The notes under the pieces are model-generated. The model searched no databases, was not told the origin of the DNA, and saw nothing but the letters and a program-made list of their open reading frames with translations. Below, piece by piece: positions 13,155 to 32,066 of a stretch of 32,066 nucleotides of DNA. Origin of the DNA: Actinomycetes bacterium (GTDB lineage Bacteria > Actinomycetota > Actinomycetes > Streptosporangiales > Streptosporangiaceae); assembly GCA_021792405.1 (NCBI GenBank), contig JAJYUU010000052.1, forward strand, positions 1 to 32,066, in the 5' to 3' direction. Each line of letters starts with the position of its first letter. The first letter of the stretch is position 1. Both the position numbers and the translations under genes were made by a program.

Positions 13155-14150
13155 CTATCCGGTCCGCTCGACGACGAACTCGCACATCGCCTCGAATGCC
13201 GCCCGTGCGGGCACGTCCGGCAGGTCCAGGATCAGTTCTCTGGCCTGCTGCGCCCATTGCCTGGTGTCCGCTCGGGCCATCTCCATGGCCGCATGCCCGC
13301 GCAGCAGGGTGAGCGCTTCGGCGTGCAGCACCGGGTCGGTCAGCTCAGGCATGCTCAGCAGTTCGACAAGCCTGCCGTCCGCCGGGCCGGCCGACCGCAG
13401 CGCATGCAGCACCGGCAGCGAGCGCACGCCCTCCCTCAGATCGGTACCCGGCGTCTTGCCCGACTGAGCCGATTCGCTTGCCACGTCGAGGATGTCATCG
13501 GAAAGCTGGAAGGCCACGCCGATGGCGGCGCAAGCCGGGGTGATCCGGTCGATGACGCTCGCAGGCGCGCCGGAGAACATGGCGCCGAACCGGCCAGCGG
13601 TAGCGATCAGGGAGGCGGTCTTCTCGGTGACCACGCCGAGGTAGTGGTTCAGCGGGTCCTCGCCTGGCTGGCAGCCGACGGTCTCCGCGATCTGCCCGTT
13701 GACCAGCCGGGCGAACGTCTCCGCCTGAATCCGGATCGCCTCGGCGCCGAGGTCGGCCAGGATCTCCGAGGCGCGGGCAAACAGGTAATCTCCGGTCAGG
13801 ATCGCGACGGTGTTTCCCCAGCGCGAGTTAGCGCTGGCGCTGCCGCGGCGAACGTCGGCCTCGTCCATGACGTCGTCGTGATAGAGCGTTGCCAGGTGGG
13901 TCAGCTCGACAGCGACCGCCGCCGGCACGATGCGGGGGTCCCTGGGATCGCCGAATTGCCCGGCCAGCAGCACCAGCGTCGGCCGGAAGCGCTTGCCGCC
14001 CGCCTCCATCAGATGCTCGGCTGCCTCGGCGAGCACGGGATGCTGAGCCTTAGCGGCCGTCCGCAGGCCTTCCTCGACGTGCGCGAGGCCGTCAACGACA
14101 TCGGCGGCGAGTGCTGCGTCGGTCAGTTCCATCGGGACAGCGGCAATCAC
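13155..14150 (-). CDS. Long-chain polyprenyl diphosphate synthase
   Basis: The 331-residue E-type prenyltransferase condenses isopentenyl diphosphate onto an allylic primer. Both aspartate motifs are present: FARM D92-D-V-M-D96 and SARM DDILD at about 218-222. GGKRFRP at about 51-57 is the substrate-binding segment. The residues just before the FARM (A87, T88) are small rather than the tyrosine or phenylalanine that stop elongation at C15-C20, which suggests a long product such as C35-C45. That fits a menaquinone side chain. GTG 14150 has AGGGG 7 bases upstream; an alternative ATG lies at 14132. It lies 211 bases after nuoN on the same strand, so read-through from the nuo operon or its own promoter are both possible. 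Confidence 0.92.
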   Translation of the reverse strand: MIAAVPMELTDAALAADVVDGLAHVEEGLRTAAKAQHPVLAEAAEHLMEAGGKRFRPTLVLLAGQFGDPRDPRIVPAAVAVELTHLATLYHDDVMDEADVRRGSASANSRWGNTVAILTGDYLFARASEILADLGAEAIRIQAETFARLVNGQIAETVGCQPGEDPLNHYLGVVTEKTASLIATAGRFGAMFSGAPASVIDRITPACAAIGVAFQLSDDILDVASESAQSGKTPGTDLREGVRSLPVLHALRSAGPADGRLVELLSMPELTDPVLHAEALTLLRGHAAMEMARADTRQWAQQARELILDLPDVPARAAFEAMCEFVVERTG

Positions 14151-14361: not shown

Positions 14362-15948
14362 CTAGCGGACGAAAAGCTGGCTGGCGGCGTGACTGGCCAG
14401 GCTGAGCAGCGGCTCCGGGATGATGCCGAGCACGACAGTCGCTGCCGCCCCGATCGCCACGGCAAGCCCGGTGTATGCGCTCGGCCGCACGACGACAGGT
14501 CCCTCGGCGGCTGGCTCGCTGAAGAACATCAGCACGATCACCCGCACGTAGGGGAACGCGAGAATCGCGCTGCTGATCACGCCGATGATCACCAAGGGCA
14601 GCGCCCCGCCCTGGATCGCTGCCCGGAACACGGCGAATTTGCCATTGAACCCGCTGGTCAGCGGGATGCCGGCAAAGGCGATCAGGAAGAGGGCGAAAAC
14701 GCCGGCCACGAGCGGCGAGCGCTTCCCGAGGCCAGCCCAGCCGGACATGTGCGCCGCTTCCCCGGCCCGGTCCCTGACGAGCGTGACGATGGCAAAGGCG
14801 CCGATTGTGGCGAATCCGTACGCCGCCAGGTAGAACAGACTGCCGGACAGGCCTGCCGCGTTAGCGGCGATCACACCGGTCAGGATGTAGCCGGCCTGCG
14901 CGATCGAGGAGTACGCCAGCAGTCGCTTCACGTCGGTCTGGGTGATCGCGATGATCGAGCCGACCATCATGGTGACGATCGCCACTGCCCACATGGCCGG
15001 CCGCCAGTCCCAGGTCAGCTGGCCGAAGGCGACATAGAAGACCCGCAGCAGCGCGCCGAATGCCGAGACCAGCGTGCATGACGCCATGAGCGCCGTGATC
15101 GGAGTCGGCGAGCCCTGGTACACATCCGGCTTCCAGGCCTGGAATGGCACGGCGCCGACCTTGAACAGCAAGCCGACGCCGAGCAGCGCGATCCCGGCGT
15201 AGAGCAGGGTGGATGAGGCCAGCCCGCTCTGCGCGGCGGTGGCTATCGCCGACAGCCGCACCGATCCTGCGTACCCGTACAGCATGGCGATGCCGAACAG
15301 GAAGATAGCCGACGAGAACGCGCCGAGCAGGAAGTACTTCATCGCGGCTTCCTGGGACAGCAGCCGCCGGCGCCGCGCGAGGCCGCACAGCAGGTAGAGC
15401 GGCAGGGATAGCACCTCGAGCGCGATGAACATGGTCAGCAGGTCGTTAGCGGCCGGGAACAGCAACATGCCGCCGACCGCGAACAGTGTCAGCGGATACA
15501 CCTCGGTGTGCGACAGGCCGGCCAGCAGGCCCTCGCGTTCCTCGGCGCTGCCGGGAACGGCGGCCGCCTGCGGGGTGAAGGAACTGACCTCGTGGGACGA
15601 CTCGGCGATCAGCAGCACGCTGACGAAGGCCAGGATCAGGATGGTGGCCTGTATGAACAGTGTCGGCCTGTCCACCCCGACGGTCCCGATCGCGGCTACG
15701 ACGCCGGGCTTGCCGGCCGCGAAGATCGAGCTCTTGGCGGCCAGCACCACGGTCAGCACGAAGGCGCCGGCCAGGCTGCCGAGCGTCAGCGCGACATGCA
15801 TGGGCCTTCGCAGGTCCCTCGGAGCGAAGGCCTCGATGAGGACGCCCGCCAGCGCCGCCCCGAACACCAGCAGCATCGGCGAGAGCAAGCTCCACTCGAA
15901 GTGCGGGGCGGCTATTGTCGATGCGGTCGCCGCGACGGTCACGCTCAC
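14362..15948 (-). CDS. nuoN: NADH-quinone oxidoreductase subunit N
   Basis: The 528-residue antiporter-like membrane subunit is one of the three proton channels of complex I. About 14 hydrophobic segments are visible. The central Proton_antipo domain contains LLYGYAGSVRL and KVGAVPFQAWKPDVYQGSPTPITALMA, with the lysine thought to take part in proton transfer, and later TDVKRLLAYSSIAQAGYI. GTG 15948 is chosen because AGGGAG lies 6 bases upstream and it overlaps the nuoM stop as GTGA. The longer open frame would add a hydrophilic leader antisense to nothing useful. It is the last nuo gene. Downstream comes a 211-base gap before the polyprenyl synthase. Confidence 0.95.
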   Translation of the reverse strand: MSVTVAATASTIAAPHFEWSLLSPMLLVFGAALAGVLIEAFAPRDLRRPMHVALTLGSLAGAFVLTVVLAAKSSIFAAGKPGVVAAIGTVGVDRPTLFIQATILILAFVSVLLIAESSHEVSSFTPQAAAVPGSAEEREGLLAGLSHTEVYPLTLFAVGGMLLFPAANDLLTMFIALEVLSLPLYLLCGLARRRRLLSQEAAMKYFLLGAFSSAIFLFGIAMLYGYAGSVRLSAIATAAQSGLASSTLLYAGIALLGVGLLFKVGAVPFQAWKPDVYQGSPTPITALMASCTLVSAFGALLRVFYVAFGQLTWDWRPAMWAVAIVTMMVGSIIAITQTDVKRLLAYSSIAQAGYILTGVIAANAAGLSGSLFYLAAYGFATIGAFAIVTLVRDRAGEAAHMSGWAGLGKRSPLVAGVFALFLIAFAGIPLTSGFNGKFAVFRAAIQGGALPLVIIGVISSAILAFPYVRVIVLMFFSEPAAEGPVVVRPSAYTGLAVAIGAAATVVLGIIPEPLLSLASHAASQLFVR

Positions 15949-17633
15949 GCCGAGCTCCCTTGCTTGCGTAGTGTCTGGCCGCGCTGCCCGCGCCCATGCT
16001 GTACCAGGCTGGTAGTGCTCGCCTGCCGGGCCGACGCGCTGGCCGGGTGCGGCGGAACGGGGTCCCTGCTGTGAACCCCGACCAGCGTGCTGTGCACGGC
16101 CGGGTTGATGATGTCCAGCGCCGGCTTCGGGTAGACGCCGAGCACGACGATGAGCGCGATGAGCGGTGCCACCGCCCATAGCTCGCGCGCTTTGAGGTCT
16201 GGCATGTTCGCCACCTCGGCGCGGACCGGCCCGGTCATGGTCCGCTGATACATCCACAGGATGTAGATCGCGGCCAGGATGATGCCGACCGTTGCCAGGA
16301 CGGCGGCCGCCTCGTACCGGGTGAAGGTGCCGACCAGGACCAGGAACTCGCTGACGAAGGTCGACAGGCCGGGCAGCGCCAGCCCGGCCAGGCCAGCGAT
16401 CAGGAACAGCCCGGCCAGCACCGGTGCCACCTTCTGCACGCCGCCGTAGTCGGCGATGAGGTGCGACTTGCGCCTGCTCACCATGAAGCCGGCCAGGATG
16501 AACAGGGCGCCGGTGGCGAAGCCGTGATTCACCATGTACAGCGTCGCGCCGGCCTGTCCCTGGCTTGTCATCGCGAAGATGCCGAGCGTGATCAGGCCCA
16601 TGTGGGAGACGGAGGTATAGGCGATCAGGCGCTTGATATCCGCCTGGCCGATAGCCACGACCGCGCCATACAAGACACCGACTACCGACAGCACGATCAC
16701 CAGCGGGGTGAAGAAGTGCGCGGCCGACGGGAACAGGTCAAGGCAGTACCGGATCATGCCGAACGTGCCGACCTTGTCCAGCACGCCGACCAGCAGCACC
16801 GCCGCGCCTGGCTGTGCGGAGGTGGCGGCGTCCGGCAGCCAGGTATGGAATGGCCACAGCGGGGCCTTGATCGCGAACGCGATGAAGAAGCCGAGGAAGA
16901 GCCACTTCTGCGTGGTGGGGCTCAGCGCAAGATGACTGAGCCGGGTGAACAGGAATGTGCCCTGGTGGCCGCCGTGGGTTGAGTAGACGTACAGCGCGAT
17001 CACGGCCACCAGCATGAGCAAGCCGCCGAGCAGGCTGTAAAGCAGGAACTTGACCGCCGCGTACTGCCGCTGGCCGACGCCGTAGCTGCCGATCATGAAG
17101 TACATCGGCACGAGCATGGCCTCGAAGAACACGTAGAACAAGAAGACGTCGGTGGCGGCGAAGACGCCGATCATCATCGTCTCGAGCACCAGCATCATCG
17201 CGAAGTACGACTTAGCGCTTCGTCCCCGCCGCGCCCGCCTGCCCGGCGCAGCGGAGGCGGTGCTGGCGGCGACCTCTTCCACGTCATTCCAGGACGCCAG
17301 CACGACCACCGGCATCAGTACCGTGGACATCAGGATCAGCACGAGCGCAATGCCGTCCACGCCGACCGCGTAGTGCACGCCGAACTGCGGGATCCACTGG
17401 TACACCTGCTGGAACTGGAAGCGCGGACCGCCGGGCCTGAACTTCACCGCGATCACGATCGTCAGCGCGAGCGTGATCAGCGAGAAAACCAGGGCGAGCC
17501 GCTTGACCAGCAGGTCGCGAGCGCGCCGGTCAGCCGGGCTGCCTGCCGCCGACCTGCCCGGCGTCAGCGCGATCGCGATCGCGCCGACCAGCGGGACGGC
17601 ACCCGCTACCGTCAGCCATGGGAAAGTGCTCAT
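15945..17633 (-). CDS. nuoM: NADH-quinone oxidoreductase subunit M
   Basis: The 562-residue membrane subunit is a proton-channel paralogue of NuoL and NuoN. The antiporter domain includes LWPFHTWLPDAATSAQPGAAVLLVGVLDKVGTFGMIRY and GAVVAIGQADIKRLIAYTSVSHMGL. The glutamate of the N-terminal helices is in LVLETMMIGVFAATD. A hydrophilic insert rich in alanine and arginine lies between early helices (about residues 105-125). A basic tail of about 45 residues follows the last helix. ATG 17633 begins MSTFPWLTVAGAVPL, with GAGG about 11 bases upstream. The larger open frame upstream is antisense-like hydrophilic sequence. It overlaps nuoN by 4 bases and follows nuoL by 23. Confidence 0.95.
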   Translation of the reverse strand: MSTFPWLTVAGAVPLVGAIAIALTPGRSAAGSPADRRARDLLVKRLALVFSLITLALTIVIAVKFRPGGPRFQFQQVYQWIPQFGVHYAVGVDGIALVLILMSTVLMPVVVLASWNDVEEVAASTASAAPGRRARRGRSAKSYFAMMLVLETMMIGVFAATDVFLFYVFFEAMLVPMYFMIGSYGVGQRQYAAVKFLLYSLLGGLLMLVAVIALYVYSTHGGHQGTFLFTRLSHLALSPTTQKWLFLGFFIAFAIKAPLWPFHTWLPDAATSAQPGAAVLLVGVLDKVGTFGMIRYCLDLFPSAAHFFTPLVIVLSVVGVLYGAVVAIGQADIKRLIAYTSVSHMGLITLGIFAMTSQGQAGATLYMVNHGFATGALFILAGFMVSRRKSHLIADYGGVQKVAPVLAGLFLIAGLAGLALPGLSTFVSEFLVLVGTFTRYEAAAVLATVGIILAAIYILWMYQRTMTGPVRAEVANMPDLKARELWAVAPLIALIVVLGVYPKPALDIINPAVHSTLVGVHSRDPVPPHPASASARQASTTSLVQHGRGQRGQTLRKQGSSA

Positions 17634-17656
17634 CAGTTCTGCAGCCTCACAGTTTC

Positions 17657-19600
17657 CTACAGCCGCACCAGCAGGAACGTGCCAACCAGCAGCACGGCAC
17701 CGACCAGCATGGACAGCGCGTACGAGCGGACGAAGCCGGTCTGCACCTTGCGCATCCTCCCCGACGACCCGCCGAAGGCGGCCGCGACGGTGTTCACCAG
17801 GCCGTCCACGCCGCGGTTGTCGAAATACACCGACAGCCGGGTCAGCCACTGGCCGGGCCGCATCAGCAGGCCTTCGTTGATGGCGTCACCGTACAAGTCC
17901 TTGCGTGCCGCGACGGTGAAAGGGTTGGCGGCCGGCGCAGCGACCGGCACCTCACGCCGGCCGTACAGCACGAAGGCGAGCCCGGCGGCGGCGATCACCA
18001 GCGCGAGACCGGCCCAGCCGTACACGGTGAAGATGCCGTGCGAGACAGGCGGCACGCCGATCACCGGACCGAGGAAGTCCTGCAGCCGGCTGCCGATGAT
18101 GAAGATCGCGCCAGCCGCCAGCGACCCGGCCGCGAGCAGGATTGCCGGCCAGATCATCACCGGCGGTGCTTCGTGCGGGTGCTGGCCCTCGTCCCACCGG
18201 CGCCTGCCGGTGAACGTCATCAGCAGCATCCGCGTCATGTACAGCGAGGTGATGCCGGCCCCGATCAGCGCCGCGGTGCCCAGCAGCGCTCCGGAGACGC
18301 CGCCCCTGCTGAACGCCGCCTCGATGATCGGATCCTTGGTGAAGAACGCCGAGAATGGCGGGATGCCGATGATCGCAAGGTAGGCGCAGAAGAACGCGCC
18401 GAACGTGATCGGCATCGCCACCCGCAGCCCGCCGAACCGGCGCATGTCGACCTCGTCGTTCATCTCATGCTTGACCGACCCGGCCGTGAGGAACAGCGTG
18501 GCCTTGAAGAACCCGTGCGCAAGCAACTGGGCGATCGCGAAGATGTATCCGGCCGGCCCGAGACCGGCGGCCAGCGTCATGTAGCCGATCTGGCTCATCG
18601 TCGATCCGGCCAGCGACTTCTTGATGTCGTCCTTCGCGCACCCGATAATCCCGCCGAACAGCAGCGTGGCTGCGCCGACGATCGCCACCGCTAGCCGCGC
18701 GTCGGGGGTGAGGTTGAAGATCGGGCCGGACCGGACGATGAGGTATACCCCGGCGGTGACCATCGTGGCCGCGTGGATCAGCGCCGACACCGGGGTCGGG
18801 CCCTCCATGGCGTCCAGCAGCCAGGACTGCAGCGGAAGCTGGGCCGACTTGCCGCAGGCACCCAGCAGCAGCAGCAAGCCGATAGCGGTCACGACCCCGT
18901 TGCTCGCCTTCGGGGCCGCCCCGAAGACGCCGGTGAAAGTCACGGAGCCGAACTGGAAGAACATCAGCATGATCGCCAGCGACAGCCCGGCGTCACCGAC
19001 CCGGTTGGCGACGAACGCCTTCTTGGCCGCGACCGCCGCCGAGTCCTTGTACTGCCAGAACCCGATCAGCAGGTAGGACGCCAGGCCGACGCCCTCCCAC
19101 CCCGTGTACAGCAGGAGGTAGTTGTCGGCCAGCACGAGCAGGAGCATCGCGGCCACGAACAGGTTCATGTAGCCGAAGAACCGCCGGCGGTCGGGATCGT
19201 GCGACATGTAGCCGACCGCGAAGATGTGGATCAGCGAGCCGACGCCGGTGATCAGCAGCACGAAGCAGATCGACAGCGGGTCGAGCCGCAAGCCGAACGG
19301 GACCTGGAACCGGCCGACGTCGATGAACTGATACAGGGTGAGTTCGCGGGAGCGCTGCGCTGCCGGGTACCCGAGCATCTGCACGAACGCCGCGACGCCA
19401 TAGGCGAAGGCCAGCACCGGCATCGCCACGCCGACCAGGTGTCCCCAGCTGTTCGTCCGCTTGCCGCCAAGGAGCAGGATGACGGCGCCGGCCAGCGGGA
19501 AGGCGAGCAGCAAGCCGGCCGCGGCCTGGATTCCGGTCGCGTGCAGGCTCGCGAGAGCCGCGGCGTGCGGCACGAGCGCAGCGTGGACTGAGCCGGTCAT
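17657..19600 (-). CDS. nuoL: NADH-quinone oxidoreductase subunit L
   Basis: The 647-residue distal proton-pumping subunit has about 16 hydrophobic segments. The conserved channel region reads [45 protein letters not shown], followed by [21 protein letters not shown]. After helix 14 comes a hydrophilic stretch and a C-terminal helix, as expected of the lateral helix HL that ties the antiporter-like subunits together. ATG 19600 has GGGAG immediately upstream, which is close spacing. It lies 12 bases after nuoK and 23 before nuoM. Confidence 0.96.
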
Positions 19601-19612
19601 GGCTCCCTTTCG

Positions 19613-19915
19613 TCAGTACTTCATCAGGTTCGCGTCATCTACCGACGCGGACCTGCGGGCTCGGAAGATGGCCGTCAGGATCGCCAGCCCGACGACCACT
19701 TCGGCGGCGGCCACCACCATTACGAAGAATGCGATCACCTGGCCGTCGAGCGCATTGTGCATCCTGGCGAACGCGACGAAGGCGAGGTTGGCGGCGTTGA
19801 GCATGAGCTCGACGCACATGAACACCACGATGGCGTTGCGCCGCACCAGCACGCCGACGGCGCCGATGACGAACAAGATCACCGACAGGGCGATGAAGTG
19901 GGCCGGGCTAACCAC
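19613..19915 (-). CDS. nuoK: NADH-quinone oxidoreductase subunit K
   Basis: The 100-residue, three-helix membrane subunit is of normal length. The family segment [23 protein letters not shown] carries the conserved glutamate (in VEL) and [12 protein letters not shown] carries the second, both on the proton path next to NuoJ and NuoN. GTG 19915 overlaps the nuoJ stop by one base (TAGTG), and the frame is open no further in any useful way. It is translated in the run between nuoJ and nuoL. Confidence 0.96.
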
Positions 19916-20766
19916 TACTGCTCACCTGCTTCCTGCCCGCCGGGGGACGCGGGCCCGGTGACTGCGCCGGCCGACGCCGGGCGGGCAAGCGAACTCGCGG
20001 TCTCCGGCTCCGGGTGGCCGGGCAGTTCCCTCGGCTGCTCGCCGGAGCGCCCGGACAGGACTGGGCTCACCGACAACTCGGACTGGCTGCCGTCGGGCAG
20101 CAGCGCGGGCATGTCCGCCGCGTTGTGCTGGGCGTAGGTACCAGGGCCCGGCAGCGGCGCCGGCCGGCCACTGGCGATCCGGCGGGCGGCGAGCTCGCGC
20201 TGGGTGGGCCTCGGCGTGATGCGCTCCCGGTGGGCCAGCACCATCGCCCCGATTGCCGCGACGATCAGCAGTGCGCTGGTGACTTCGAACGGGTACAAGT
20301 ACTTGGTGAAGATAAGGTTCGCCAGCGAGGTCACATTGGCATTGCCGAATTTAGCGCTGCTGGGAGCAGCCGGGCCGATCGCCGCATGCCCGACGACCAG
20401 GCTCAGCAGAACCAGCATGGCGATCCCGGCCAGGGCAGCCCACATGCGCTGCCCGCGGATGGTCTCGATGATCGAATCGGCTGCGCTGATGCCGACGATC
20501 ATCAAGACGAACAGGAACAGCATCAGGACCGCGCCGGTGTAGACGATGATCTGCACGAACGACAGGAACGGCGCGCCGAGCATCGCGTAGAAGGCCGCCA
20601 GCGACAGCATCACCACGGCTAGCAGCATCGCGCAGTGCACCGCCCGGCGCGCCAGCACCATGCCGACTGCGGCTGCGACCGACAGGATGGCCAGGATCCA
20701 GTACCCGACCTCTCTGGTGGTCTCGGCCGCCGGGCTGGCCAGGATAAGCGCATGAGTTCCGGTCAC
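19915..20766 (-). CDS. nuoJ: NADH-quinone oxidoreductase subunit J
   Basis: The 283-residue membrane subunit has five helices in its first 180 residues, including the conserved [30 protein letters not shown] segment that holds the pi-bulge helix of complex I. It is longer than the 180-200 residues of proteobacterial NuoJ. The extra 100 residues are a hydrophilic, proline- and alanine-rich tail after [14 protein letters not shown], as seen in other actinobacteria. GTG 20766 overlaps the nuoI stop as GTGA. Confidence 0.95.
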
Positions 20767-21407
20767 TGCACCCCTCCCTGGCCTGTCGAACCGTCCCGAC
20801 CTTGCACCGGCCAGTCCTGCACCGGCCAGTCCTCCACCGGCCAGTCCTGGACCGGGCCCTTTTCCACCGGGCTGCGCTCAGCTGAGCCAGCCTGGCTGGC
20901 GGCGAGCATGGCACCGAGCTGGTAATAGTCCTCTTCGCTAGTCCCCAGCCGCATCGGGTGCGGCGGCGCCTCCATGCCTGGCCGCAGCGGCACGACTAGC
21001 TGTTCCTTGGTCCAGATCAGGCTCTCCCGGCTGTCATCGGCCAGCTCGTAGTCATTGGTCATGGTCAGCGCCCTCGTCGGGCAGGCCTCGATGCACAACC
21101 CGCAGAGAATGCAGCGCAGGTAATTGATCTGGTAGACGCGCCCATACCGCTCGCCTGGCGAGTACCGCTCCTCGGGCGTGTTGTCCGCGCCTTCCACGTA
21201 GATCGCGTCCGCCGGGCAGGCCCAGGCGCACAGCTCGCACCCGATGCACTTCTCCAGCCCGTCCGGCCACCGGTTGAGCTGGTGGCGGCCGTGGAACCTG
21301 GGCGCGGTCGGCCGCTTCACCTCCGGGTACTCGACGGTGTCCACCTTCCGGAACATCTGCCGGAAGGTGACGCCGAATCCCTTGATGCTGTCGAAGAATT
21401 CAGGCAC
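20763..21407 (-). CDS. nuoI: NADH-quinone oxidoreductase subunit I
   Basis: The 214-residue peripheral-arm subunit holds the two 4Fe-4S clusters N6a and N6b. Their ligands are in [16 protein letters not shown] and [19 protein letters not shown] 21407 is chosen because AAGGAGG lies 6 bases upstream and it overlaps nuoH by 8 bases. The longer open frame starts inside nuoH without a ribosome binding site. The C-terminal tail (about 170-214) is unusual: the pentapeptide [10 protein letters not shown] is repeated three times, encoded by 15-bp units. The ferredoxin core is normal, so function should be unaffected. Confidence 0.95.
20806..20850 (-). repeat. 15-bp tandem repeat, three units, in the NuoI tail
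   Basis: Units at 20806-20820, 20821-20835 and 20836-20850 share ACCGGCCAGTCCT and differ in the last two bases. A degenerate fourth copy follows at 20851-20865. In the nuoI frame they encode [10 protein letters not shown] and PVQDW-type pentapeptides (about residues 186-200). Confidence 0.88.
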
Positions 21408-22848
21408 CCGTGACCTCCTTCGTGCCCCCGCCAGCGGCGGCACTGTCGTCGCCGGTCACCCCGGCCAGCACGGGATTTCCCGCTGAGCCGGCTAGCCCGA
21501 TGCCGTGATAGTGCGGCAGGTCCAGCGGCGGTGTCGGGAACGCGGCTCCGGCAGGCCGGTCTCCTGCCGCCTCGGCCCGGTCTTCGGCGGCCTGGGCCGC
21601 CAGCCGCTCCGCCCGCAGGCCGGCGGACTCCCACCGCCACAGCAGCGCCAGCAGGATCACGAGGATCGCCCCGCCGATGATGTAGACCGCTGGGCTGCCG
21701 CCCTGCCGCCGGTACACCCTGGCGGTCGCGACCACCAGCGTCCAGGTCAGCGCCCCGGGTATCAGCACCTTCCAGCCAAGGCGCATCAGCTGGTCGTACC
21801 GGATCCGGGGCAGCGAGGCACGCAGCCAGAAGAAGCAGAACACGAAGATGACGACCTTTGCCAGGAACCAGAGCACCGGCCACCAGCCGCTGTTGGCGCC
21901 TGACCAGACGCTCAGCGGCCACGGCGCACGCCAGCCGCCGAGGAACAGCGTGGTCGCCAGCGCCGACACGGTGATCACGTTGACGTACTCGGCCAGCTGG
22001 ATCATGGCGAACTTCAGCGAGGAGTACTCAGTGTGGTACCCGCCGACCAGTTCACCCTCGCCCTCGGGCAGGTCGAACGGCAACCGGTTCGTTTCGCCGA
22101 CCATGGTGATCAGGTAGATCAGGAAGGACGGCAGCAGCAGGACCGCATACCACGACGGCCAGTGCCAGATGTAACCGAAGAAATGGAACTCCGAACCGTG
22201 GATCTGCGCCGCGACTATCTGCGAGGTGGACAGCGAGCCGGAGTACAGGAACACCGGCACGAAGGCCAGGCTCATCGCGATCTCGTAACTGATCACCTGG
22301 GCGGACGATCGCAGGCCGCCGAGTAGGGAGTACGGCGAGTGGGCCGACCAGCCGGCCAGCACGATGCCGTAGACACCTAGCGAGCTCATCGCGATCACCA
22401 GCAGCACGGCCACGGGGAGGTCGGTGAGCTGCAGCGGGGTCCGATGGCCCGCGATCGAGACGATCGGCCCCCACGGGATGACCGCGAAGCTGATGAAGGC
22501 AGGGATCACCGAGATGGCCGGGGCAAGCATGAAGAGCACCTTGTCCACGCCGCGCGGAACGATGTCTTCCATCAGCGCGAGCTTGATGCCGTCCATCAGC
22601 GACTGCAGCAGCCCGAACTTTCCCGCCCGGTTCGGGCCGGGACGCTGCTGCATCCGGCCGATGACGCGGCGCTCCGCCCAGATCGCGAACAGCGTGCCGA
22701 GCAGCAGGAACAGGAAGACGACCAGCACCTTGATGATGACGATCCACCACGCGTCATGCCCGAAGCTGGCCAGCGTGGGAACGTTGCTGGCCGGCCCGGA
22801 CGCTAGCAGCGCGGTCCTGCCAGCCGCTGTACCGGCGAGCACGGTCAT
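21400..22848 (-). CDS. nuoH: NADH-quinone oxidoreductase subunit H
   Basis: The 482-residue membrane subunit joins the peripheral arm and forms the quinone chamber. Conserved segments are [33 protein letters not shown] and the [31 protein letters not shown] loop, which lies near the quinone. The [23 protein letters not shown] segment near the end is also typical. A hydrophilic C-terminal tail of about 75 residues follows the last helix and is longer than in E. coli. ATG 22848 has GGAG 7 bases upstream and overlaps the nuoG stop (ATGA). Confidence 0.96.
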
Positions 22849-25265
22849 TCGGCGCTCCTCACCGTGACGACACTCCCATGGCCGGCGTGCAGATCACGAC
22901 GGACGGCGCTGCCGGCAGAGTTGGCCGGCAGCCAGACGACCCGGTCAGGCATATCAGCGATCTCCACGGGAACAGTAATGGCACCGTGGCTGGTGGTCAC
23001 GGTCACCTTGGCGCCGTCCGTCGTTGCGGCCGAAGCGGCGGTCGCGGCCGACATGCGCGCCACGGCTGGGCGCGCAGTGCCCGCGAGATTAGGCTCGCCG
23101 TCCTGCATCCGGCCGACGTCGAGGAGATTATGCCAGGTGGCTAGCAGCGCGCTGGCGGCGCCCGGACGCTCCGCCTCGACCGGGCCGCTCCGGCTGGCCG
23201 CCTCGGCGGTCCCCGCTGGCACGGGACTTGCGGACGGCGCGGAGGCGGGCGGGAGGACGGCCGACTGGGTCAGCATCGCCATCTCGCGCCGGACCGCCGC
23301 GATGTCCGGCAGGCCCAGGTGCACGTCCATCTCGTCGGCCAGCGCGGCCAGCACCTGCAGGTCGGTCTGCACCGACGGCACCGCGAGCGCAGCCCTGAAC
23401 GAGCCAGGACGGCCTTCCCAGTTCACGAACGTGCCGGGCTTCTCCGCGACCGCGGCGACCGGGAAGACCACGTCCGCGCGGTCGGTGACGGCGCTGACGC
23501 GCAACTCCAGGCTGACCACGAACTCGGCGGCTTCGATTGCCGCCAGTGCCGCTGCCGGGTCCGGCAGGTCGTACGGATCGACGGCGCCGATCAGCAGCGC
23601 CCCGATATCACCGGCCGCAGCCGCGGCCAGGATCTCGCTCGTGCTGCGGCCGGGTTCGGCCGGCAGCGAGCCGACCCCCCAGACCCTGGCGACCGCGGCG
23701 GTCGCGTCCGCGCTGCCGATGCGCCGGGCGCCGGGCAGCAGGTTCGGCAGCGCGCCTGCCTCGATGGCGCCGCGCTCGCCTGCCCGCCGCGGAACCCAGG
23801 CGAGCTTTGCCCCGGTCTGGCCCGCCAGGCGAACCGCTGCCGACAGCGCACCGGGCACCTCGGCAAGCCGCTCGCCGACTATGATCACGGCGCCCCGCTG
23901 ACGCAGCGCCGCAGTGATCTCCTCGGGAAGCTGCGCCAGCGCGGCAGCCTCGCCGCCGGGCACCGTAGGCAGCAGTGTGCCGTCGAGCTTGGTCAGTCCG
24001 CTGCTGGCGAGCGCGGCGATCGAGTACACGACGAGCCCGCCGGCCCGGACCGCCTTACGCAGCCTGAGGAACACGATCGGGCACTCGTCCTCTGGCTCGA
24101 AGCCGGCCAGCAGCACAGCCGGCGAGTGCTGCAGCTCGTCGTAGCTGAGGTACACCCGGCCGGCCACGTGGTCGGCAAGGAACTGCAACTCCTCAGCCGA
24201 CTGCGGCCTGCTGCGCATGTCGATGTCGTTGCTGGCCAGCGCAACCCGGGCGAACTTGGCGTAGCCGTAGGCATCCTCCAGCGTGAGTCGCCCGCCGGGC
24301 AGCACGCCGGCCCGGCCGCGGGCGGCCAGCAGGCCACGGGCGGCGACGTCCAGCGCCTCCGCCCAGGACGCGGGCCGCAGCACGCCGTCAAGGTCGCGGA
24401 CCAGCGGCGAGATCAGCCGGTCGGGTTGCGTCGCGTAGGTGAAAGCCCACCGGCCCTTGTCGCAATTCCACTCCTCGTTGACCGCGGGATCGTTGCCGGC
24501 CAGCCGCCGCGTGACAGCTCCGCGGCGGTGGTCGGTGCGCTGGCGGCAGCCCGCCGCACAGTGCTCGCACACGCTGGGCGTGGAGACCAGGTCATACGGA
24601 CGGGAGCGGAACCGGTAGGACGCGCCGGTGAGTGCGCCGACCGGGCAGATCTGCACGGTGTTACCGGAAAAGTAGGAGTCGAACGGGACCCCGTCGGCAA
24701 CGCCGACCTGCTCCTGCGGACCGCGCTCAACCAGTTCGATCAGCGGGTCGCCGGCGATCTGGTCGGCGAACCGCGTGCAACGGGCACACTGGATGCACCG
24801 CTCACGGTCCAGCAGCACCTGAGCAGACAACGCGACGGGCTTGGCGAACGTCCGCTTGACTCCGTCAAACCTGGTCTCGCCTGCCCCGGTGGACATGGCC
24901 TGGTTCTGCAGCGGGCACTCACCGCCCTTGTCACACATGGGGCAGTCGAGCGGATGGTTGACCAGGAGCAGCTCCATCATGCCGCGCTGCGCCTTCTCGG
25001 CCACTGGCGAGGTCAGCTGCGTGCGGACGACCATGCCGTCGGTCACCGTGGTGGTGCAGGACGCGGGCGGCTTCGGCTGCCCTTCGACCTGCACCAGGCA
25101 CTGGCGGCAGGCACCGACAGGAGCCAGCAGCGGATGGTCGCAGAACCGCGGGATCTGAATGCCGAGTTGCTCGGCGGCCCGGATGATCAGCGTTCCCTTG
25201 GGCACGGTGATCTCGAAGCCGTCGATGGTCACGCGGACCCCGTCGGTCACGGGCTGGACTGTCAT
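22845..25265 (-). CDS. nuoG: NADH-quinone oxidoreductase subunit G
   Basis: The 806-residue iron-sulfur subunit belongs to the NADH-oxidising arm. Visible ligands are the N-terminal 2Fe-2S set ([12 protein letters not shown] with nearby cysteines), the His-Cys motif [17 protein letters not shown] for N5, [10 protein letters not shown] with CPVGALT for N4, and CEHCAAGC plus NCDKGRW. The last set suggests the extra N7 cluster. The rest is the molybdopterin-oxidoreductase-like fold, which in NuoG is structural. A low-complexity linker rich in alanine and serine lies near residue 690-730. ATG 25265 overlaps the nuoF stop by 4 bases. Confidence 0.96.
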
Positions 25266-26569
25266 CGGGCCGACTCCAAGGCAAACAGTGTCGATGCGGC
25301 GGGATCGAACGGGCAGCCGCCGATGCGCAGGTGCTCGATGTACTCATCCCGGAAGTACTTGATCGAGGACGCGACCGACGGCTGGATCGAGTCGCCGAGC
25401 GCGCAGAATGCGCGGCCGGTGATGTTGTCGCAGATATCCAGCAGCTTGTCCAGGTCGCCTTCGCTGCCCGCACCACGCTCGAGGCGGTCGAGGAGCTGGA
25501 CGACCCACCAGCTACCCTCCCGGCACGGCGTGCACTTGCCGCATGACTCGTGCCGGTAGAACTCGGCCCAGCGCAGCACGACGCGGACCGGGCAGGTGGT
25601 CTCGTCGAATAGCTGTATCGAGCGGGTCCCGAGCATCGAACCGGCGGCCGCTACTGACTCGTAGTCGAGCGGCACGTCCAGGTGCTGGTCGGTGAACAGC
25701 GGCGTGGACGACCCGCCGGGGGTCCAGAACTTCAGCCGGTTACCGTTCCTGATGCCGCCGGCCAGGCCCAGCAGCTCGCGCAGCGTGGTACCGAGCGGCG
25801 CTTCATACTGGCCGGGCGTAGTGACGTGCCCGGACAGCGAGAAAAGCCCGAAACCCTTCGATTTCTCGGTCCCGAACCGGGCGAACTCGGCGGGGCCGTA
25901 CCGCAAGATGTACGGCACCGTGGCGATCGACTCGACGTTGTTGACGACCGTCGGGCAGGCGTACAGACCTGCGACGGCAGGGAACGGCGGCTTGAGGCGG
26001 GGCTGCCCGCGGAACCCCTCCAGCGAGTCCAGCAGCGCCGTTTCCTCGCCGCAGATGTAGGCACCCGCACCGGCATGGACGACGATGTCGAGGTTGAGTC
26101 CGGAGCCGAGGATGTTCTCGCCCAGGTAGCCCGCCTGGTAGGCCTCGGAAACGGCCAGCTGCAGCCGCCTGATCACGTGCAGCACCTCGCCCCGCACGTA
26201 GATGAACGCCAGCTTCGCGCGGATCGCGTAGCACGCGATGATCATCCCTTCGATCAGCGCCTGCGGGTTGTTGAGCAGCGTCGGCATGTCCTTGCAGGCG
26301 CCCGGCTCGGATTCGTCGGCGTTGACTACCAGGTAGTGCGGCTTGCCGTCGCCCTGCGGAATGAACCCCCACTTGACCCCGGTGGGGAAGCCCGCTCCGC
26401 CGCGGCCGCGCAGCGCTGAGTCCTTCAGCGCCTGGATGACCTCGTCCGGCGCCATCGCGAGGGCCTTGCGCAGTGCCTGGTAGCCGCCATCGCGCCGGTA
26501 GCCGGCCAGCCGGAAGGAATCGGGCTCGTCCCAGTGCGCGCTGAGCTCCGGGATCAGGATCGTCGTCAC
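25262..26569 (-). CDS. nuoF: NADH-quinone oxidoreductase subunit F
   Basis: The 435-residue subunit binds NADH and FMN and carries cluster N3. The FMN/NADH glycine-rich loops are [15 protein letters not shown] and [19 protein letters not shown], with [13 protein letters not shown] between them. The 4Fe-4S ligands are in [11 protein letters not shown] and, about 40 residues on, CALGDS. GTG 26569 is chosen because AAGGA lies 6 bases upstream and it overlaps the nuoE stop (GTGA), giving a normal family length. The longer frame is an out-of-frame continuation through nuoE. Confidence 0.96.
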
Positions 26570-27300
26570 TGCTGTCCTTCCGCCGGGGCGCTGCCGTTCG
26601 CGGCAGTGCTGTCTGCGGCAGTGCTGTTCGCGGCAGTGCTGTCTGCGCTGCCGTCGGGACGCCAGCCCTGCTGCCTGGCCATCCGCAGGCCGGCCAGGGT
26701 GGCCTCGCCCGCGGTGTGACCGTCGGCCGCCTGGCCGTCGGGGAAGCCGGCCAGGATCTTCGACGCTTGCTTCCAGGTGCACAGCCGCGGTGCGCCGCGC
26801 GTCGGCTTGACGTCGCCGCCGGTCCTGAGGTCATCGACGAGGTCGCGCGCCGATTGCGGCGTCATGTTGTCGAAGAACTCCCAGTTGACCATGACCACTG
26901 GCGCGTAGTCGCAGGCCGCGTTGCACTCAACGTGCTCGACGCTGACTTTGCCGTCCGGTGTCGGCTCGTCCACCTCGACGCCGAGGTGATCTTTCAGGCC
27001 CGCGAGGATCGCGTCGCCGCCCATCACCGCACACAGCGCTGTGGTGCAGACGCCGACGTGATACTCGCCGACCGGCGAGCGCTTGTACATGGAGTAGAAC
27101 GACGCCACGCCGGTCACATCGGCGTCGGTCAGCCCGAGCTGCTCGGCGCAGAATGCGATGCCGTCCTGCGACACGTAGCCCTCTTCTGATTGCACCAGGT
27201 GCAGCAGCGGCAGCAGGGCCGAGCGTGCCTTCGGGTACCTGCCGATGATCTCGGCAGCCTGCGGCGCAAGCCGGGTGCGTGCCTCCTCGCTCAGCGCCAT
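26566..27300 (-). CDS. nuoE: NADH-quinone oxidoreductase subunit E
   Basis: The 244-residue thioredoxin-like 2Fe-2S (N1a) subunit partners NuoF. The four ligands are in CTTALCAVMGG and, after about 35 residues, ECNAACDYAP. ATG 27300 overlaps the nuoD stop by one base (TAATG), and the protein begins [19 protein letters not shown]. The fold ends near residue 170. The remaining tail contains a tandem AADST/AANST repeat from 15-bp units and a QQ end. Such tails are variable and probably do not take part in electron transfer. Confidence 0.95.
   Translation of the reverse strand: MALSEEARTRLAPQAAEIIGRYPKARSALLPLLHLVQSEEGYVSQDGIAFCAEQLGLTDADVTGVASFYSMYKRSPVGEYHVGVCTTALCAVMGGDAILAGLKDHLGVEVDEPTPDGKVSVEHVECNAACDYAPVVMVNWEFFDNMTPQSARDLVDDLRTGGDVKPTRGAPRLCTWKQASKILAGFPDGQAADGHTAGEATLAGLRMARQQGWRPDGSADSTAANSTAADSTAANGSAPAEGQQ
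26601..26645 (-). repeat. 15-bp tandem repeat, three units, in the NuoE tail
   Basis: Units at 26601-26615, 26616-26630 and 26631-26645 share CGGCAGTGCTGT. In the nuoE frame they encode ADSTA/ANSTA pentapeptides (about residues 219-233). A partial further copy precedes at about 26590. Confidence 0.88.
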
Positions 27301-28712
27301 TACCTGTCCACGCCTCCCATCACCGGATCGATGCTGGCGACCGCGGCGATGACGTCGGCGATCATGCCGCCCTCGCACATCGCCGCGACCGACTGCAGGT
27401 TCGTAAAGGACGGATCCCTGAAATGCACCCGGTAGGGCCTGGTACCGCCGTCGCTGACGGCATGGCAGCCCAGCTCGCCGCGGGGTGACTCGACGGCCGC
27501 GTAAACCTGCCCGGCCGGCACCCGGAAGCCCTCCGTGACCAGCTTGAAGTGGTGAATCAGGGCCTCCATGGACTGGCTCATGATGTGCGCGATGTGGTCG
27601 GGCGAGTTGCCCATCCCGTCCGGGCCGAGTGCCAGCCTGGCCGGCCAGCCGATCTTGGCATCGGCGACCATCACCGGCTGGCCAGCCAGCTCGGTCAGGC
27701 GATCCACGCACTGCCCGATGATCCGCAGCGACTGGTCGAGCTCATCCATCCGGACCAGATACCGGCCGAAGGCGTCCGCGCTCTGCTGCACCGGCACGTC
27801 GAACTCGTAGGTCTCGTAGCCGCAGTACGGCTGGCTCTTGCGCAGGTCCCAGGGCAACCCGGCGGACCGCAAGATCGGCCCGGTGATCCCGAGCGCCATG
27901 CAGCCGGTCACGTCCAGGTGCGAGATGCCCTTGGTCCTGGCAATGAAGACCGGGGCGGCGTCGAACAGCGCCCGGATTTCGGCCAGCAGGCCCGGCATTA
28001 TCCGGACGTACTCGCGCAACCGCTCAAGCGCGCCGGCCGGCAGGTCCATCGAGACGCCGCCCGGCCGGATGAAGGCGTGATTCATGCGCAGGCCGGTGAT
28101 GAGCTCGAACAGGTCGAGGGTCTTCTCCCGCTCGCGCATGCCGTAGATGAACACAGTGGTCGCGCCGAGTTCCAGGCCCATCGTCCCGATGGCGGTCAGG
28201 TGCGAGCTGATCCGGTTCAGCTCCATCATCAGCACCCGGATGACATTGGCGCGCTCGGGCACTTCCGACTCGATGCCCAGCAGCTTCTCCACTGCCAGGC
28301 AATAGGCGGTCTCGTTGAACAGCGGCGACAGGTAGTCCATCCGGGTGCAGAAGGTGACACCCTGAGTCCAGGTACGGAACTCCATGTTCTTCTCGATGCC
28401 GGTGTGCAGGTAGCCGATGACCGGTCGCAGTTCGGTCACGGTTTCCCCGTCCAGGGTCACCACCAGCCGCAGCACGCCATGCGTGGACGGGTGCTGCGGG
28501 CCCATGTTGACGACCATGCGCTCGCCGGCTGCGTGGTCATCGGCAGCGGCGCCGACGACCTCGTCCCAGTCCTGGCCGCTGACGTGGTAAACCCGCCCCT
28601 CGTCGAAGTCGGCGCCGCCGGTGTCCTCGCCGGGCCTGGTCTCGTTGTCCGGGTCACGGTAGGCACCGGCCGGGCCACTGCCGTGCGTCTGGTGCTCAGT
28701 CGGAGCGGTCAC
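27300..28712 (-). CDS. nuoD: NADH-quinone oxidoreductase subunit D
   Basis: The 470-residue 49-kDa-type subunit forms the quinone site with NuoB. The fold begins at about residue 65 with [22 protein letters not shown], the loop containing the quinone-interacting histidine, and continues [12 protein letters not shown] and [14 protein letters not shown]. The C terminus has the normal GVDR end. The first 65 residues are a hydrophilic extension, longer than in E. coli. GTG 28712 overlaps the nuoC stop by 4 bases. Confidence 0.96.
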
Positions 28713-29458
28713 TCGTACGCCCTCCGCTCATTAGGCGGCGGAATGGTCGCGCCGCGGTACTCCACCGGGATGCCGCCGAGCGGGTAGTCCTTCCGCTGCG
28801 GATGCCCGCGCCAGTCGTCCGGCATCTCGATCCTGGTGAGCGCGGGGTGCCCGTCGAAGATGAGGCCGAAGAAGTCCCAGGTCTCGCGCTCGTGGAAGTC
28901 GCAGGTGGGATAGATGTCCACCAGCGAGGGAACGTGCGGATCGGCGTCGGGCGCTGTGACTTCCACCCGCAACCGCCGGTTATGGGTTATCGACAGCAGG
29001 TGATAGACGGCGCGCAGTTCTTCACCGGCCGCGTCCGGGTAGTGCACCCCGGACACGCCCAGGCACATCTCGAACGACAGGGCCGGGTCGTCGCGGAGCC
29101 GGGACGCCACCGCCAGCAAGTGCTCGCGCCGCACGTACAGGGTGAGCTGGCCGCTGGCGACGATCACCTGCTCGACGGCGTCGCCGAAACTGACGCCGAC
29201 AGTCGCGAGCGAGGCGGCCAGCGCGTCGGCCATCTCGTCGAAGTAGGAGCCATACGGCCGGGGGCTGGACAGCCGCGGTGGCCGGCGGACCTTAAGCCCG
29301 CCGTAGCCCGACGTGTCGCCGGTGTCCGACGTCCCGAACATCCCGGTTCGCTTGACCTGCTCGGCCAGCCGCTCCCGGCCCGCCAGCGCCGCCGGGTCGG
29401 GGACAGCGGTGTGCCCGCGCGCGGCGTCACCCTGCTGAGGCTCGCTCGGTCCGGTCAC
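28709..29458 (-). CDS. nuoC: NADH-quinone oxidoreductase subunit C
   Basis: The 249-residue 30-kDa-type subunit of the connecting module is a separate protein here, not fused to NuoD. The signature [40 protein letters not shown] is at about residues 190-230. The first 75 residues are a poorly conserved extension. GTG 29458 overlaps the nuoB stop by 4 bases, and its own stop overlaps nuoD. Confidence 0.95.
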
Positions 29459-30048
29459 GGCGTGCCGCCCTGGCTAGCGCTGTCACGCTGCGCGCCGGCG
29501 TGCAGGCCGGCCCCGGACACCAGCGGCAGCCGCCGGAGCCGGGCTTCCTCAAGCTCGGTGACTTCGCGCTCCCGGTTGACGCCCAGCTTGGAGTTCTGGA
29601 TCCGGTCGTGCAGCTTGACGATCGCGTCCATCAGCATCTCCGGGCGCGGCGGGCAGCCGGGCAGGTAGATGTCGACCGGGACGATGTGATCAACGCCCTG
29701 CACGATCGCGTAGTTGTTGAACATCCCGCCGCTGGACGCGCACACGCCCATCGAGATGACCCACTTGGGTTCCGACATCTGGTCGTAGATCTGCCGCAGC
29801 ACCGGGGCCATCTTCTGGCTGACCCGGCCGGCCACGATCATCAGGTCGGCCTGGCGCGGGGTGTTGGAGGCCCGCTCCATCCCGAACCTGGCCAGGTCGT
29901 GCCGTGGCCCGCCGGTAGCCATCAGCTCGATGGCGCAGCAGGCAAGACCGAAGGTGGCCGGCCAGACCGAGCTCTTCCGCGCGTAGCCGGCGACCTTCTC
30001 GACCGTCGTCAGCAGGACGCCGGACGGCAGCTTTTCCTCAATTCCCAT
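29455..30048 (-). CDS. nuoB: NADH-quinone oxidoreductase subunit B
   Basis: The 197-residue PSST-type subunit carries cluster N2, which passes electrons to quinone. The tandem cysteines are in [10 protein letters not shown], with further ligands in GVCASSGG and [12 protein letters not shown] 30048 ([13 protein letters not shown]) has GGGA about 7 bases upstream and lies 2 bases after the nuoA stop. The open frame extending to 30312 is antisense-frame nuoA sequence and is not used. The tail after about residue 165 is arginine-rich and variable. Confidence 0.96.
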
Positions 30049-30050
30049 CG

Positions 30051-30407
30051 CTAATCCCACTCCAGCCCGCCGCGACGCCAGACGTAGGCGTATGCGACAA
30101 GCACCGTGGCTATGAAAGTGACCATCTCCACCAGGCCGAACACCCCGAGCTTGTCGAAGTAGACAGCCCACGGGTACAGGAAGATGATCTCGATGTCGAA
30201 GACGATGAACAGCATCGCCGTCAGGTAGTACTTGACAGGGAATCTGATGCCCACCGTCTGCTTGGTTGGCTCGATGCCGCATTCGTAGGCCTCGAGCTTG
30301 GCCCTGTTCCACCGCTTCGGGCCGGATATCGAACCCGCGACCAGCGAGAAGACGGCGAACGCCCCGGCGAGTATGGCCAGCGCCAGGATCGGCACGTACA
30401 GGCTCAT
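30051..30407 (-). CDS. nuoA: NADH-quinone oxidoreductase subunit A
   Basis: The 118-residue subunit has three membrane helices, with the conserved YECGIEP loop and [24 protein letters not shown] segment. The YECG loop holds the cysteine near the quinone channel. ATG 30407 is the first good start; the upstream sequence gives only a weak GGG-type ribosome binding site. It is the first nuo gene proper and lies 71 bases after the reductase gene on the same strand. This suggests that it is transcribed with it. Confidence 0.96.
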
Positions 30408-30478
30408 TGCCCAGTCACCCCCTTCGTCGGAGATTTCTTCATGTCCACGGGCATTTCTCGCTTAGTCGGCATCGCCGG

Positions 30479-31930
30479 TTAAGCCGCGGGCGTCATCTTA
30501 GACACCGCGTTCAGTAGCCGGTCCACCGCATCGCCACCGCGGGCCTCGGTCAGATTGCCGAGCAGTTTCATGGTGAAGCGCATCACGGCCGGCCGCTTCA
30601 CCCCGTGCTTGGTGCAGAACTGCATGATGGACGGCTTGCCGATCAGGTCGACGAAGATCCGGCCCAGTGTGTAATAACCGCCGTAGGCATCCTTGAGCTG
30701 CCGCGGGTACGTCTGGAGTACCCGTTCGCGGTCGGCCGCCGTTGGCCTGGCCAGCGCCTGCGTGATCACCCTGGCCGCGATCTCGCCTGCCTCAAGGGCG
30801 TACGCGATGCCCTCGCCATTGAACGGGTTGACCATCCCGCCGGCGTCGCCGGCCAGCAGCAGGCCCCTGGTGTAGTGCGGGGTGCGGTTGAAGCCCATGG
30901 GCAGCGCCGCGCCACGTACCGGCTGCGTCCGGTTCTCCTCGGTGAAGCCCCATTCGGCTGGCATGCCGCTCAGCCACCTGCGCAGCAGGTGGCGGTAGTC
31001 GATCTCGCCGAAGCCAGTCGAGGTGTTCAGCAGCCCGAGGCCGACGTTGGAGGTGCCGTCGCCCATTCCGAAGATCCATCCGTAGCCGGGCAGCAGGGCA
31101 TCTCCGTCCCACAGGTCCAGCCAGGCCTCGAGATAGTCGTCGTTGTGCCGGGGTGAGGTGTAGTAGGTGCGGACCGCGACGCCCATCGGGCGGTCATCGC
31201 GCTTATGCAGGCCCATCGCGATCGAGAGCCGGGAGGAGTTGCCGTCGGCCGCCACCACCAGCCGCCCCCGGAACTCGCGACCGTCCTTGGTCTGCACCCC
31301 GGTGATCTGGCCAGTCCGGTCGTCGAGCAGCGGGCCGGTAACGTTCGCCCCCTCGATCAGGCGCGCACCGGCCTTCTCCGCGTGCCGCGCCAGGATCTGG
31401 TCGAAGTCCGTCCTCGTCCGGACCAGGCCGTAACCGGGGTAGCTCGATAGCTCGGGCCAGTCCAGTTCGATCCGGCCACCGCCGCCGATAATCCGCAATC
31501 CCCTGTTTCGCAGCCACCCGTCGCTCTCGCAGATCGGCACGCCCATCGCGGTCAGCGCCCGCACCGCACGAGGCGTCAGGCCGTCGCCGCAGACCTTCTC
31601 CCGCGGGAAGCTCGTTTTCTCCAGCATCAGCACGTCCAGGCCTGCTGCCGCCAGGTAGTAGGCCACGGACGAGCCGGCTGGCCCGGCACCGACGACAATC
31701 ACGTCGGCACTGGCGTCAGCGGTACCGCCGTCGGCGGTACTGGCGTCGGCGGTACTGGCGGCGCCCACACTGACAGTGCCGACACTGACAGTGCCGACGC
31801 TCTCAGGCGCGCCGGCCGCCGCCTGTGCCCGTCCGCTGCTGGCCGCAGGCGCGCTACCGCGCTCTGCGCTGACCAGCTCATGCTGAGGGGCCAAGTCTGG
31901 CGGGCCGACGGGGGGTACTTGCTCGGTCAC
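30479..31930 (-). CDS. Geranylgeranyl-reductase-family FAD protein (MenJ-like)
   Basis: The 483-residue flavoprotein has a Rossmann dinucleotide motif GAGPAGSSVAYYLAAAG (about 78-94), then EKTSFPREKVCGDGLTPRAV and, further on, GLLLAGDAGGMVNPFNGEGIAYALEAGEIAA. These are the hallmarks of geranylgeranyl reductases. In mycobacteria the related MenJ saturates one isoprene unit of menaquinone. Co-location with nuo here suggests the same role, although lipid or chlorophyll-type substrates cannot be excluded. The first 75 residues are a low-complexity extension rich in alanine, serine and threonine, with VGTVS and STADA repeats from 15-bp units. GTG 31930 has AGGA about 7 bases upstream. A Rex operator match lies just before it. 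Confidence 0.9.
   Translation of the reverse strand: MTEQVPPVGPPDLAPQHELVSAERGSAPAASSGRAQAAAGAPESVGTVSVGTVSVGAASTADASTADGGTADASADVIVVGAGPAGSSVAYYLAAAGLDVLMLEKTSFPREKVCGDGLTPRAVRALTAMGVPICESDGWLRNRGLRIIGGGGRIELDWPELSSYPGYGLVRTRTDFDQILARHAEKAGARLIEGANVTGPLLDDRTGQITGVQTKDGREFRGRLVVAADGNSSRLSIAMGLHKRDDRPMGVAVRTYYTSPRHNDDYLEAWLDLWDGDALLPGYGWIFGMGDGTSNVGLGLLNTSTGFGEIDYRHLLRRWLSGMPAEWGFTEENRTQPVRGAALPMGFNRTPHYTRGLLLAGDAGGMVNPFNGEGIAYALEAGEIAARVITQALARPTAADRERVLQTYPRQLKDAYGGYYTLGRIFVDLIGKPSIMQFCTKHGVKRPAVMRFTMKLLGNLTEARGGDAVDRLLNAVSKMTPAA
31706..31797 (-). repeat. 15-bp tandem repeats in the MenJ-like N terminus
   Basis: Four units occupy 31706-31765 (core GGTACTGGCGTCGGC), and two identical units of CACTGACAGTGCCGA occupy 31768-31797. 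They encode STADA/GTADA and VGTVS pentapeptides in the disordered N-terminal extension (about residues 45-75). Confidence 0.88.
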
Positions 31931-31949
31931 GGACCCGTCCTGATCTGTC

Positions 31950-31967
31950 TTGTGAACCTCTTCACAA
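31950..31967. promoter_or_regulatory. Rex operator (ROP box)
   Basis: TTGTGAACCTCTTCACAA is a perfect inverted repeat with a 4-base centre. It matches the actinobacterial Rex consensus TTGTGAA-N4-TTCACAA at every fixed position, and one more pair (C31949/G31968) extends the symmetry. Rex binds when NADH is low relative to NAD+ and represses respiratory genes. The site lies 20 bases before GTG 31930 of the MenJ-like gene, downstream of the candidate promoter. Bound Rex would therefore block transcription of that gene and probably of nuoA-N behind it. Confidence 0.9.
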
Positions 31968-31983
31968 GAGCTTTCCGCCTCGC

Positions 31984-32012
31984 AGTCTAGTCCCGGCGCG
32001 ATGCGGCCAGTC
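31984..32012 (-). promoter_or_regulatory. Candidate promoter for the MenJ-like/nuo operon
   Basis: On the minus strand TAGACT (31989-31984) fits a -10 element. The -35 region 17 bases upstream (GACTGG, 32012-32007) is poor. The predicted start near 31977 would put the Rex operator at about +10 to +27, a typical repressing position. Confidence 0.35.
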
Positions 32013-32066
32013 CGCCCGCCCCACCCATCACCCCAGCCCCCTCCGGCGGGCGGGCCGCTGACTACC

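Follow-up and report, generated by a model that had tools for sequence, protein, structure and literature searches.

The window, the whole 32,066-nucleotide stretch of DNA that was analysed, carries on its minus strand a gene for a geranylgeranyl-reductase-family flavoprotein, a probable menaquinone side-chain reductase (30479-31930; TIGR02032). It is followed after 71 bp by nuoA (30051-30407, minus strand; PF00507) and then by nuoB to nuoN (14362-30054, minus strand), confirming an earlier sequence-only reading in which the reductase led a nuoA-N block. NuoA and nine more subunits (B, C, D, E, G, H, K, L and N) were recognised by Pfam and F, I, J and M by position. NuoL and NuoN have an antiporter domain in common and were also told apart by position. 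A gene for a polyprenyl diphosphate synthase (13155-14150, minus strand; PF00348) lies on the same strand 211 bp after nuoN and is possibly the last gene of the unit.

The window stops at a contig end. Assemblies often hold contigs whose ends overlap, and here the final 127 nt of the window's contig recur as the start of contig C286. This overlap joins the 3' end of menG (32062-32066, minus strand) to the rest of the gene on C286 (L004:123-821), identified as demethylmenaquinone methyltransferase by NF001241 (347.8 bits against a cut-off of 327). The menG stop codon (32062-32064) is 131 bp before the reductase and both genes run in the same direction. With menG upstream on C286, the palindrome described below therefore stands between menG and the reductase-nuo unit.

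A pattern scan of the window found the candidate Rex operator TTGTGAAGAGGTTCACAA (31950-31967, minus strand), with no mismatches to the Rex consensus TTGTGAANNNNTTCACAA. The match at all fixed positions and the perfect 8+8 symmetry that had been claimed were thus both borne out, the latter once the outer C/G pair is counted (31949-31968). TTGTGAAGAGGTTCACAA was the only match in the window at up to 3 mismatches; at this threshold shuffled windows gave a mean of 0.18 matches, with at least one match in 16 of 100 shuffles. Across the 5.39 Mb genome, at most 2 mismatches returned 8 matching places but only 7 distinct sites, because two are one site on the overlapping contigs C39 and C286. The reversed pattern had no matches across the same 5.39 Mb. 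The palindrome is almost certainly a docking site for the NADH-sensing repressor Rex, and the operator itself is of an ordinary, well understood type.

The order on the minus strand is TAGACT (31984-31989), 16 nt, TTGTGAAGAGGTTCACAA, 19 nt and the GTG start at 31930, so the box does sit between a -10-like hexamer and the reductase start, as had been proposed. TAGACT was read directly as the -10 element of the reductase-nuo promoter, supported by its conserved spacing to the box: 164 of 167 distinct sequences have a TANNNT that begins 24 to 14 nt ahead of the box. In each of 11 control windows elsewhere, none overlapping the -10 position, a TANNNT occurred in 0-3 sequences. This hexamer was recognised by comparison only. 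A sigma-70 consensus scan of 30300-32066 returned no promoter-like sites and missed the proposed TAGACT promoter too, so the -35 element is weak or different. With a predicted transcription start near 31977, the operator would span roughly +11 to +28, a position that would be suited to blocking initiation or early elongation. The conserved predicted -10 hexamer thus places the box in or just after the promoter, as expected of a Rex operator. Units led by nuoA have a similar hexamer ahead of the box by eye, either TANNNT or, in several genomes of family f24, CANNNT.

Rex sites downstream of the transcription start have been described for cydA1 and wblE (PMC5355995). The Rex site of Streptomyces avermitilis nuoA1 was by contrast mapped to -42 to -16, between -35 and -10 (PMC5355995), a different geometry from the one proposed here. 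At nine loci of family f18 (L266-L274), a -10-like hexamer, TAGGAT or TAAGAT, was seen 15 nt before the nuoA box in 9/9 cases, which conflicts with that published position (PMC5355995).

The suggested check that the genome encodes Rex was passed. The source genome has a rex gene with a PF06971 match and 364 bits on NF003992 (cut-off 226). Its product matches eight distinct solved Rex-type chains, and its GAGNLG loop aligns with GAGNIG of 5zz5. hemA follows rex. Further boxes, with 1 or 2 mismatches each, were found near rex, a WhiB gene and the atp genes. The rex box lies about 150 bp ahead of the conserved Rex domain; the longest rex reading frame spans it, so the true start must be further in if the box is upstream. 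The box of the WhiB gene, which is wblE-like, stands 54 bp before it. The atp box is about 1.1 kb before atpB and 0.54 kb before the preceding open frame, farther from its gene than the S. avermitilis atp site (137 nt; PMC5355995). EMSA, ChIP and footprinting in S. avermitilis support direct control by Rex of rex-hem, wblE, atp and nuo (PMC5355995). Three other Rex-like boxes had no nameable target: L007:5671 (C10), L009:5834 (C63) and L011:5681 (C149). Their neighbourhoods hold a methyltransferase gene, a two-component system and a gene with no match in Pfam.

Co-occurrence of the box with rex was scored across genomes. The reductase and rex were each searched for in 41 relatives and in 148 genomes of the class, and nuoA in the 148-genome class set. 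A box was accepted with at most 2 mismatches of 14, within 500 bp upstream of reductase-led and 350 bp upstream of nuoA-led units. We scored 162 genomes and left out 13: the window's own genome, as its contig ends upstream; seven without a nuoA match (G030, G057, G109, G119, G129, G148 and G157); G139, whose sole nuoA match was weak; and G022, G032, G095 and G111, whose contigs end too near. The nuo unit carried a box in 134 of 140 genomes with rex, compared with 1 of 22 without detected rex (Fisher 4.9e-20, relatedness ignored). The 22 genomes are spread over five families (f6, f9, f15, f21 and f23), and 21 of them are boxless on nuo, indicating that where rex is absent the site is generally absent too.

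The exceptions were few. Six genomes have rex but no box on nuo: G055, G120, G130 and G149 (f6), G097 (f30) and G156 (f36). Their Rex proteins score at the low end (E 1.5e-79 to 2.9e-101), but some box-bearing genomes have Rex scores as low. In G055 and G120 rex itself carries a box with 1 mismatch; a Rex regulon without nuo therefore exists, and in these two genomes the regulon seems not to include nuo. The single genome with a box and no detected rex, G087, lacks hemA too, so the rex-hemA stretch is probably unassembled and the exception is likely an assembly gap. G040 and G059, which have the same genus code, both have rex and the box. G047 was counted as rex-less, but a contig starts at one of its two hemA copies, and a rex gene could simply have gone unassembled. 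In G034 (L286:2120), rex was undetected and nuo has no box, yet a Rex-type box TTGTGAACCGCCGCACAA precedes hemA by about 167 bp, the interval holding no rex; it may be what is left after rex was deleted.

In 590 kb from 122 genomes, outside the 350 bp before the reductase, only 5 sites were found, all ahead of nuoA, and the reversed pattern gave none in the same sequence. Among named genomes (the best 80 of 106 relatives) the box was present at 79 of 80 loci, 73 of them exact and 6 with 2 mismatches. One of the exact boxes stands before the reductase-nuoA pair of Thermobifida fusca (L155). The one boxless locus among these best 80 belongs to a Catenulisporales MAG and has no nuoA. The sequence-only reading had suggested looking for the same box before this gene in related genomes, and it is present in nearly all with the reductase beside nuoA. 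In families f17 and f19 the nuo box at 21 of 24 loci reads TCGTGAA-N4-TTCACGA, a symmetrical change at positions 2 and 17. The boxes upstream of rex in eight f17/f19 genomes have this form in 2 of 8.

The CRP consensus is TGTGA-N6-TCACA, and the 18-mer contains this core. The source genome also has CRP-type HTH genes, and the site could in principle be used by a regulator of the CRP/FNR family instead. Such HTH genes were however found in 21 of 21 genomes tested, 12 of them counted as rex-less and 11 of those boxless, with a model so broad that it matched in 14 of 14 control genomes too. CRP-type genes are thus present with or without the box, and the box follows rex rather than CRP. When sites were gathered by the GTGA-N6-TCAC core alone, the Rex-type flanks were kept (T1 in 121, A7 in 120, T12 in 126 and A18 in 123 of 133 sites, many from related genomes), whilst positions 2 and 17 varied. 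This count covered 153 genomes, nine fewer than the 162 (L291-L296 and three f18 genomes were left out). The other boxes in the source genome, moreover, are found close to genes known as Rex targets. Co-occurrence with rex and the conserved flanks therefore disfavour CRP, the sites do not have the character of CRP sites, and we regard this regulator as extremely improbable here.

Among genomes that have rex and carry the reductase immediately upstream of nuoA, 99 of 100 have the box ahead of the reductase, in 23 families. In rex-bearing genomes whose nuoA is not immediately preceded by a reductase, nuoA itself has the box upstream in 35 of 40. Reductase loci away from nuo, by contrast, had a box at 0 of 16 loci in 15 rex-bearing genomes; three boxed reductases whose contigs end right after them, and one truncated boxless reductase from a rex-less genome, were left out of this count. 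More distant unlinked relatives of the reductase in 20 rex-bearing genomes had a box within about 0.8 kb in 0 of 20. The boxless reductases away from nuo, together with the boxed nuoA-led units, indicate that the operator is a nuo operator, and the reductase comes under it because it leads the nuo unit. The earlier proposal that a menaquinone-modifying gene is under the operator thus stands in part: the box does precede the reductase wherever it lies beside nuoA, with one exception in 100, but the operator tracks nuo. As the boxed reductase-nuo unit was found in 23 of 35 scored families, co-control of the reductase as first gene of the unit is likely to be widespread.

Family f18 shows the other arrangement. 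Of its 12 genomes, 9 have TTGTGACCTGCTTCACAT as the nuoA box and 3 a variant of it, and in all 12 the reductase lies at least 1.7 kb from nuoA and has no box. Because it carries the very site footprinted in S. avermitilis, f18 is presumably Streptomyces or a close relative.

If Rex controlled the reductase alone, the 71-bp gap would have to hold a separate promoter for nuoA. Among the best 80 of 106 relatives, 27 loci have another, weaker box between the reductase and nuoA, so an additional nuo promoter is possible at some loci. In the window, on the other hand, the gap has no TANNNT, the nearest one being inside the reductase reading frame, and the consensus scan, which also misses the proposed TAGACT promoter, detected no promoter-like site there. 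That the box serves nuo is further indicated by its absence from the 16 reductase loci away from nuo and its presence at 35 of 40 nuoA-led units. The separate nuoA promoter, which had been named as a refuting case, thus found no support in the window, and this arrangement appears very unlikely. Nor did the consensus scan find a minus-strand terminator-like site in the gap. The second box has 2 mismatches in 11 loci and 3 in 16, stands 59-97 bp before nuoA, and in 24 of 27 loci belongs to genomes labelled Nocardiopsis (for example L192, L197 and L201).

Taken together, our results indicate that the palindrome is very probably the Rex operator of a unit predicted to run from the polyprenyl-chain reductase through nuoA-N. 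At low NADH/NAD+ a Rex dimer would occupy this site, 16 nt beyond the -10 element and shortly after the point where transcription begins, and would block polymerase. A rise in NADH would release Rex from the operator, and the reductase-nuo unit would be made, with the reductase and nuoA-N presumably on one transcript. From the DNA we infer Rex binding, its release by NADH, the single transcript and a reductase that acts on menaquinone.

The identity of the reductase bears on the last of these. The protein scored 274.6 bits against TIGR02032, above the cut-off of 158.8, placing it in the family, and it is the only protein in the source genome over that cut-off. MenJ is the menaquinone side-chain reductase of Mycobacterium tuberculosis (Upadhyay 2015, cited in PMC5936774 and PMC9686282). 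Against the MenJ equivalog model NF045655 the reductase reached 257.4 bits, below the 700-bit cut-off, and assignment as MenJ was rejected on this basis. Three relatives in other genomes likewise scored 251-260 bits on this model, compared with 764 bits for the protein of G031, with which the window's reductase has 35% identity. The description of the gene as MenJ-like therefore holds for family resemblance only and fails at the MenJ cut-off. Likeness to M. tuberculosis MenJ extends to the flavoprotein superfamily and to a location near menG and a polyprenyl synthase.

The low score on the MenJ model leaves room for a different substrate: the leading reductase might act on another polyprenyl compound, such as geranylgeranyl diphosphate or a precursor of lipids or carotenoids. 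In vitro, GGPP is reduced by an S. coelicolor geranylgeranyl reductase, whose gene may differ from this one (PMC6309074). Genome context argues against this alternative. The reductase, as sole TIGR02032 protein of its genome, lies between menG and nuo, and the polyprenyl synthase follows nuoN. In G031 a relative of that synthase adjoins the MenJ that passes the cut-off at 764 bits, and in Corynebacteriales menJ lies between hepST and menG (PMC5936774). For Geodermatophilales, BLAST was used to assign a gene annotated as "geranylgeranyl reductase family" as MenJ, and MK-9(H4) predominated in the strains studied (PMC9686282). The menG and polyprenyl synthase neighbours suggest menaquinone side-chain reduction, which we consider the probable activity, and a different polyprenyl substrate is unlikely. 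Ahead of its flavin domain the reductase carries an N-terminal extension (window 31706-31930) about 70 residues long, Ala/Ser/Thr-rich with short repeats. Most reductase matches from outside the genus start at around residues 56-75. The sequence TCTAAGAT, which lies at the 3' end of the reductase gene, shows conservation within the genus, but it is coding and was set aside.

Of 30 genomes examined, 23 have a relative of the synthase on the same strand as nuoA and 15-17 kb downstream of it. In five f18 genomes the distance from nuoA is 20-36 kb, and in two f6 genomes the relative adjoins MenJ (G031) or a putative related reductase (G071). With the synthase directly after nuoN, quinone side-chain genes likely flank nuo on both sides, and nuo thus likely sits inside a menaquinone side-chain cluster.

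Rex control of nuoA1-N1 is established in S. avermitilis (PMC5355995), in agreement with the earlier statement that Rex control of respiratory genes is known in Streptomyces. The two systems have in common the repressor family, the consensus TTGTGAANNNNTTCACAA and the nuo target operon, as well as the further targets rex-hem, wblE (here the WhiB gene) and atp (PMC5355995). They differ in the position of the site: the footprinted S. avermitilis site lies 147 nt before nuoA1 (PMC5355995), whereas here the box precedes the reductase that leads the unit. The family of G031, f6, had a box before nuo in 0 of 11 scored genomes, with or without rex. Rex operators of Staphylococcus aureus and Bacillus subtilis have a very similar palindrome, and the targets quoted for these species are fermentation, nitrate respiration, cyd, ndh and a transporter, with no nuo operon among them (PMC5355995).

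Thus, Rex over nuo is known, and its extension over the leading quinone reductase is the part for which we found no precedent: a literature search, with RegPrecise outside its scope, returned no publication placing the reductase under Rex. To our knowledge, the reason for partial menaquinone hydrogenation in many actinobacteria is not well explained. We suggest only tentatively that in most sampled families one Rex-controlled unit may join quinone side-chain saturation, complex I genes and possibly the synthase that sets side-chain length, matching quinone-pool chemistry to complex I output by NADH/NAD+; the Streptomyces-like family lacks this link. That family is the one we take to be the model for actinobacterial Rex, and across the sampled class the Streptomyces arrangement is not the usual one. 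In many families the likely menaquinone reductase heads the complex I unit, where the NADH sensor would control it, which would link redox state, complex I and quinone saturation.
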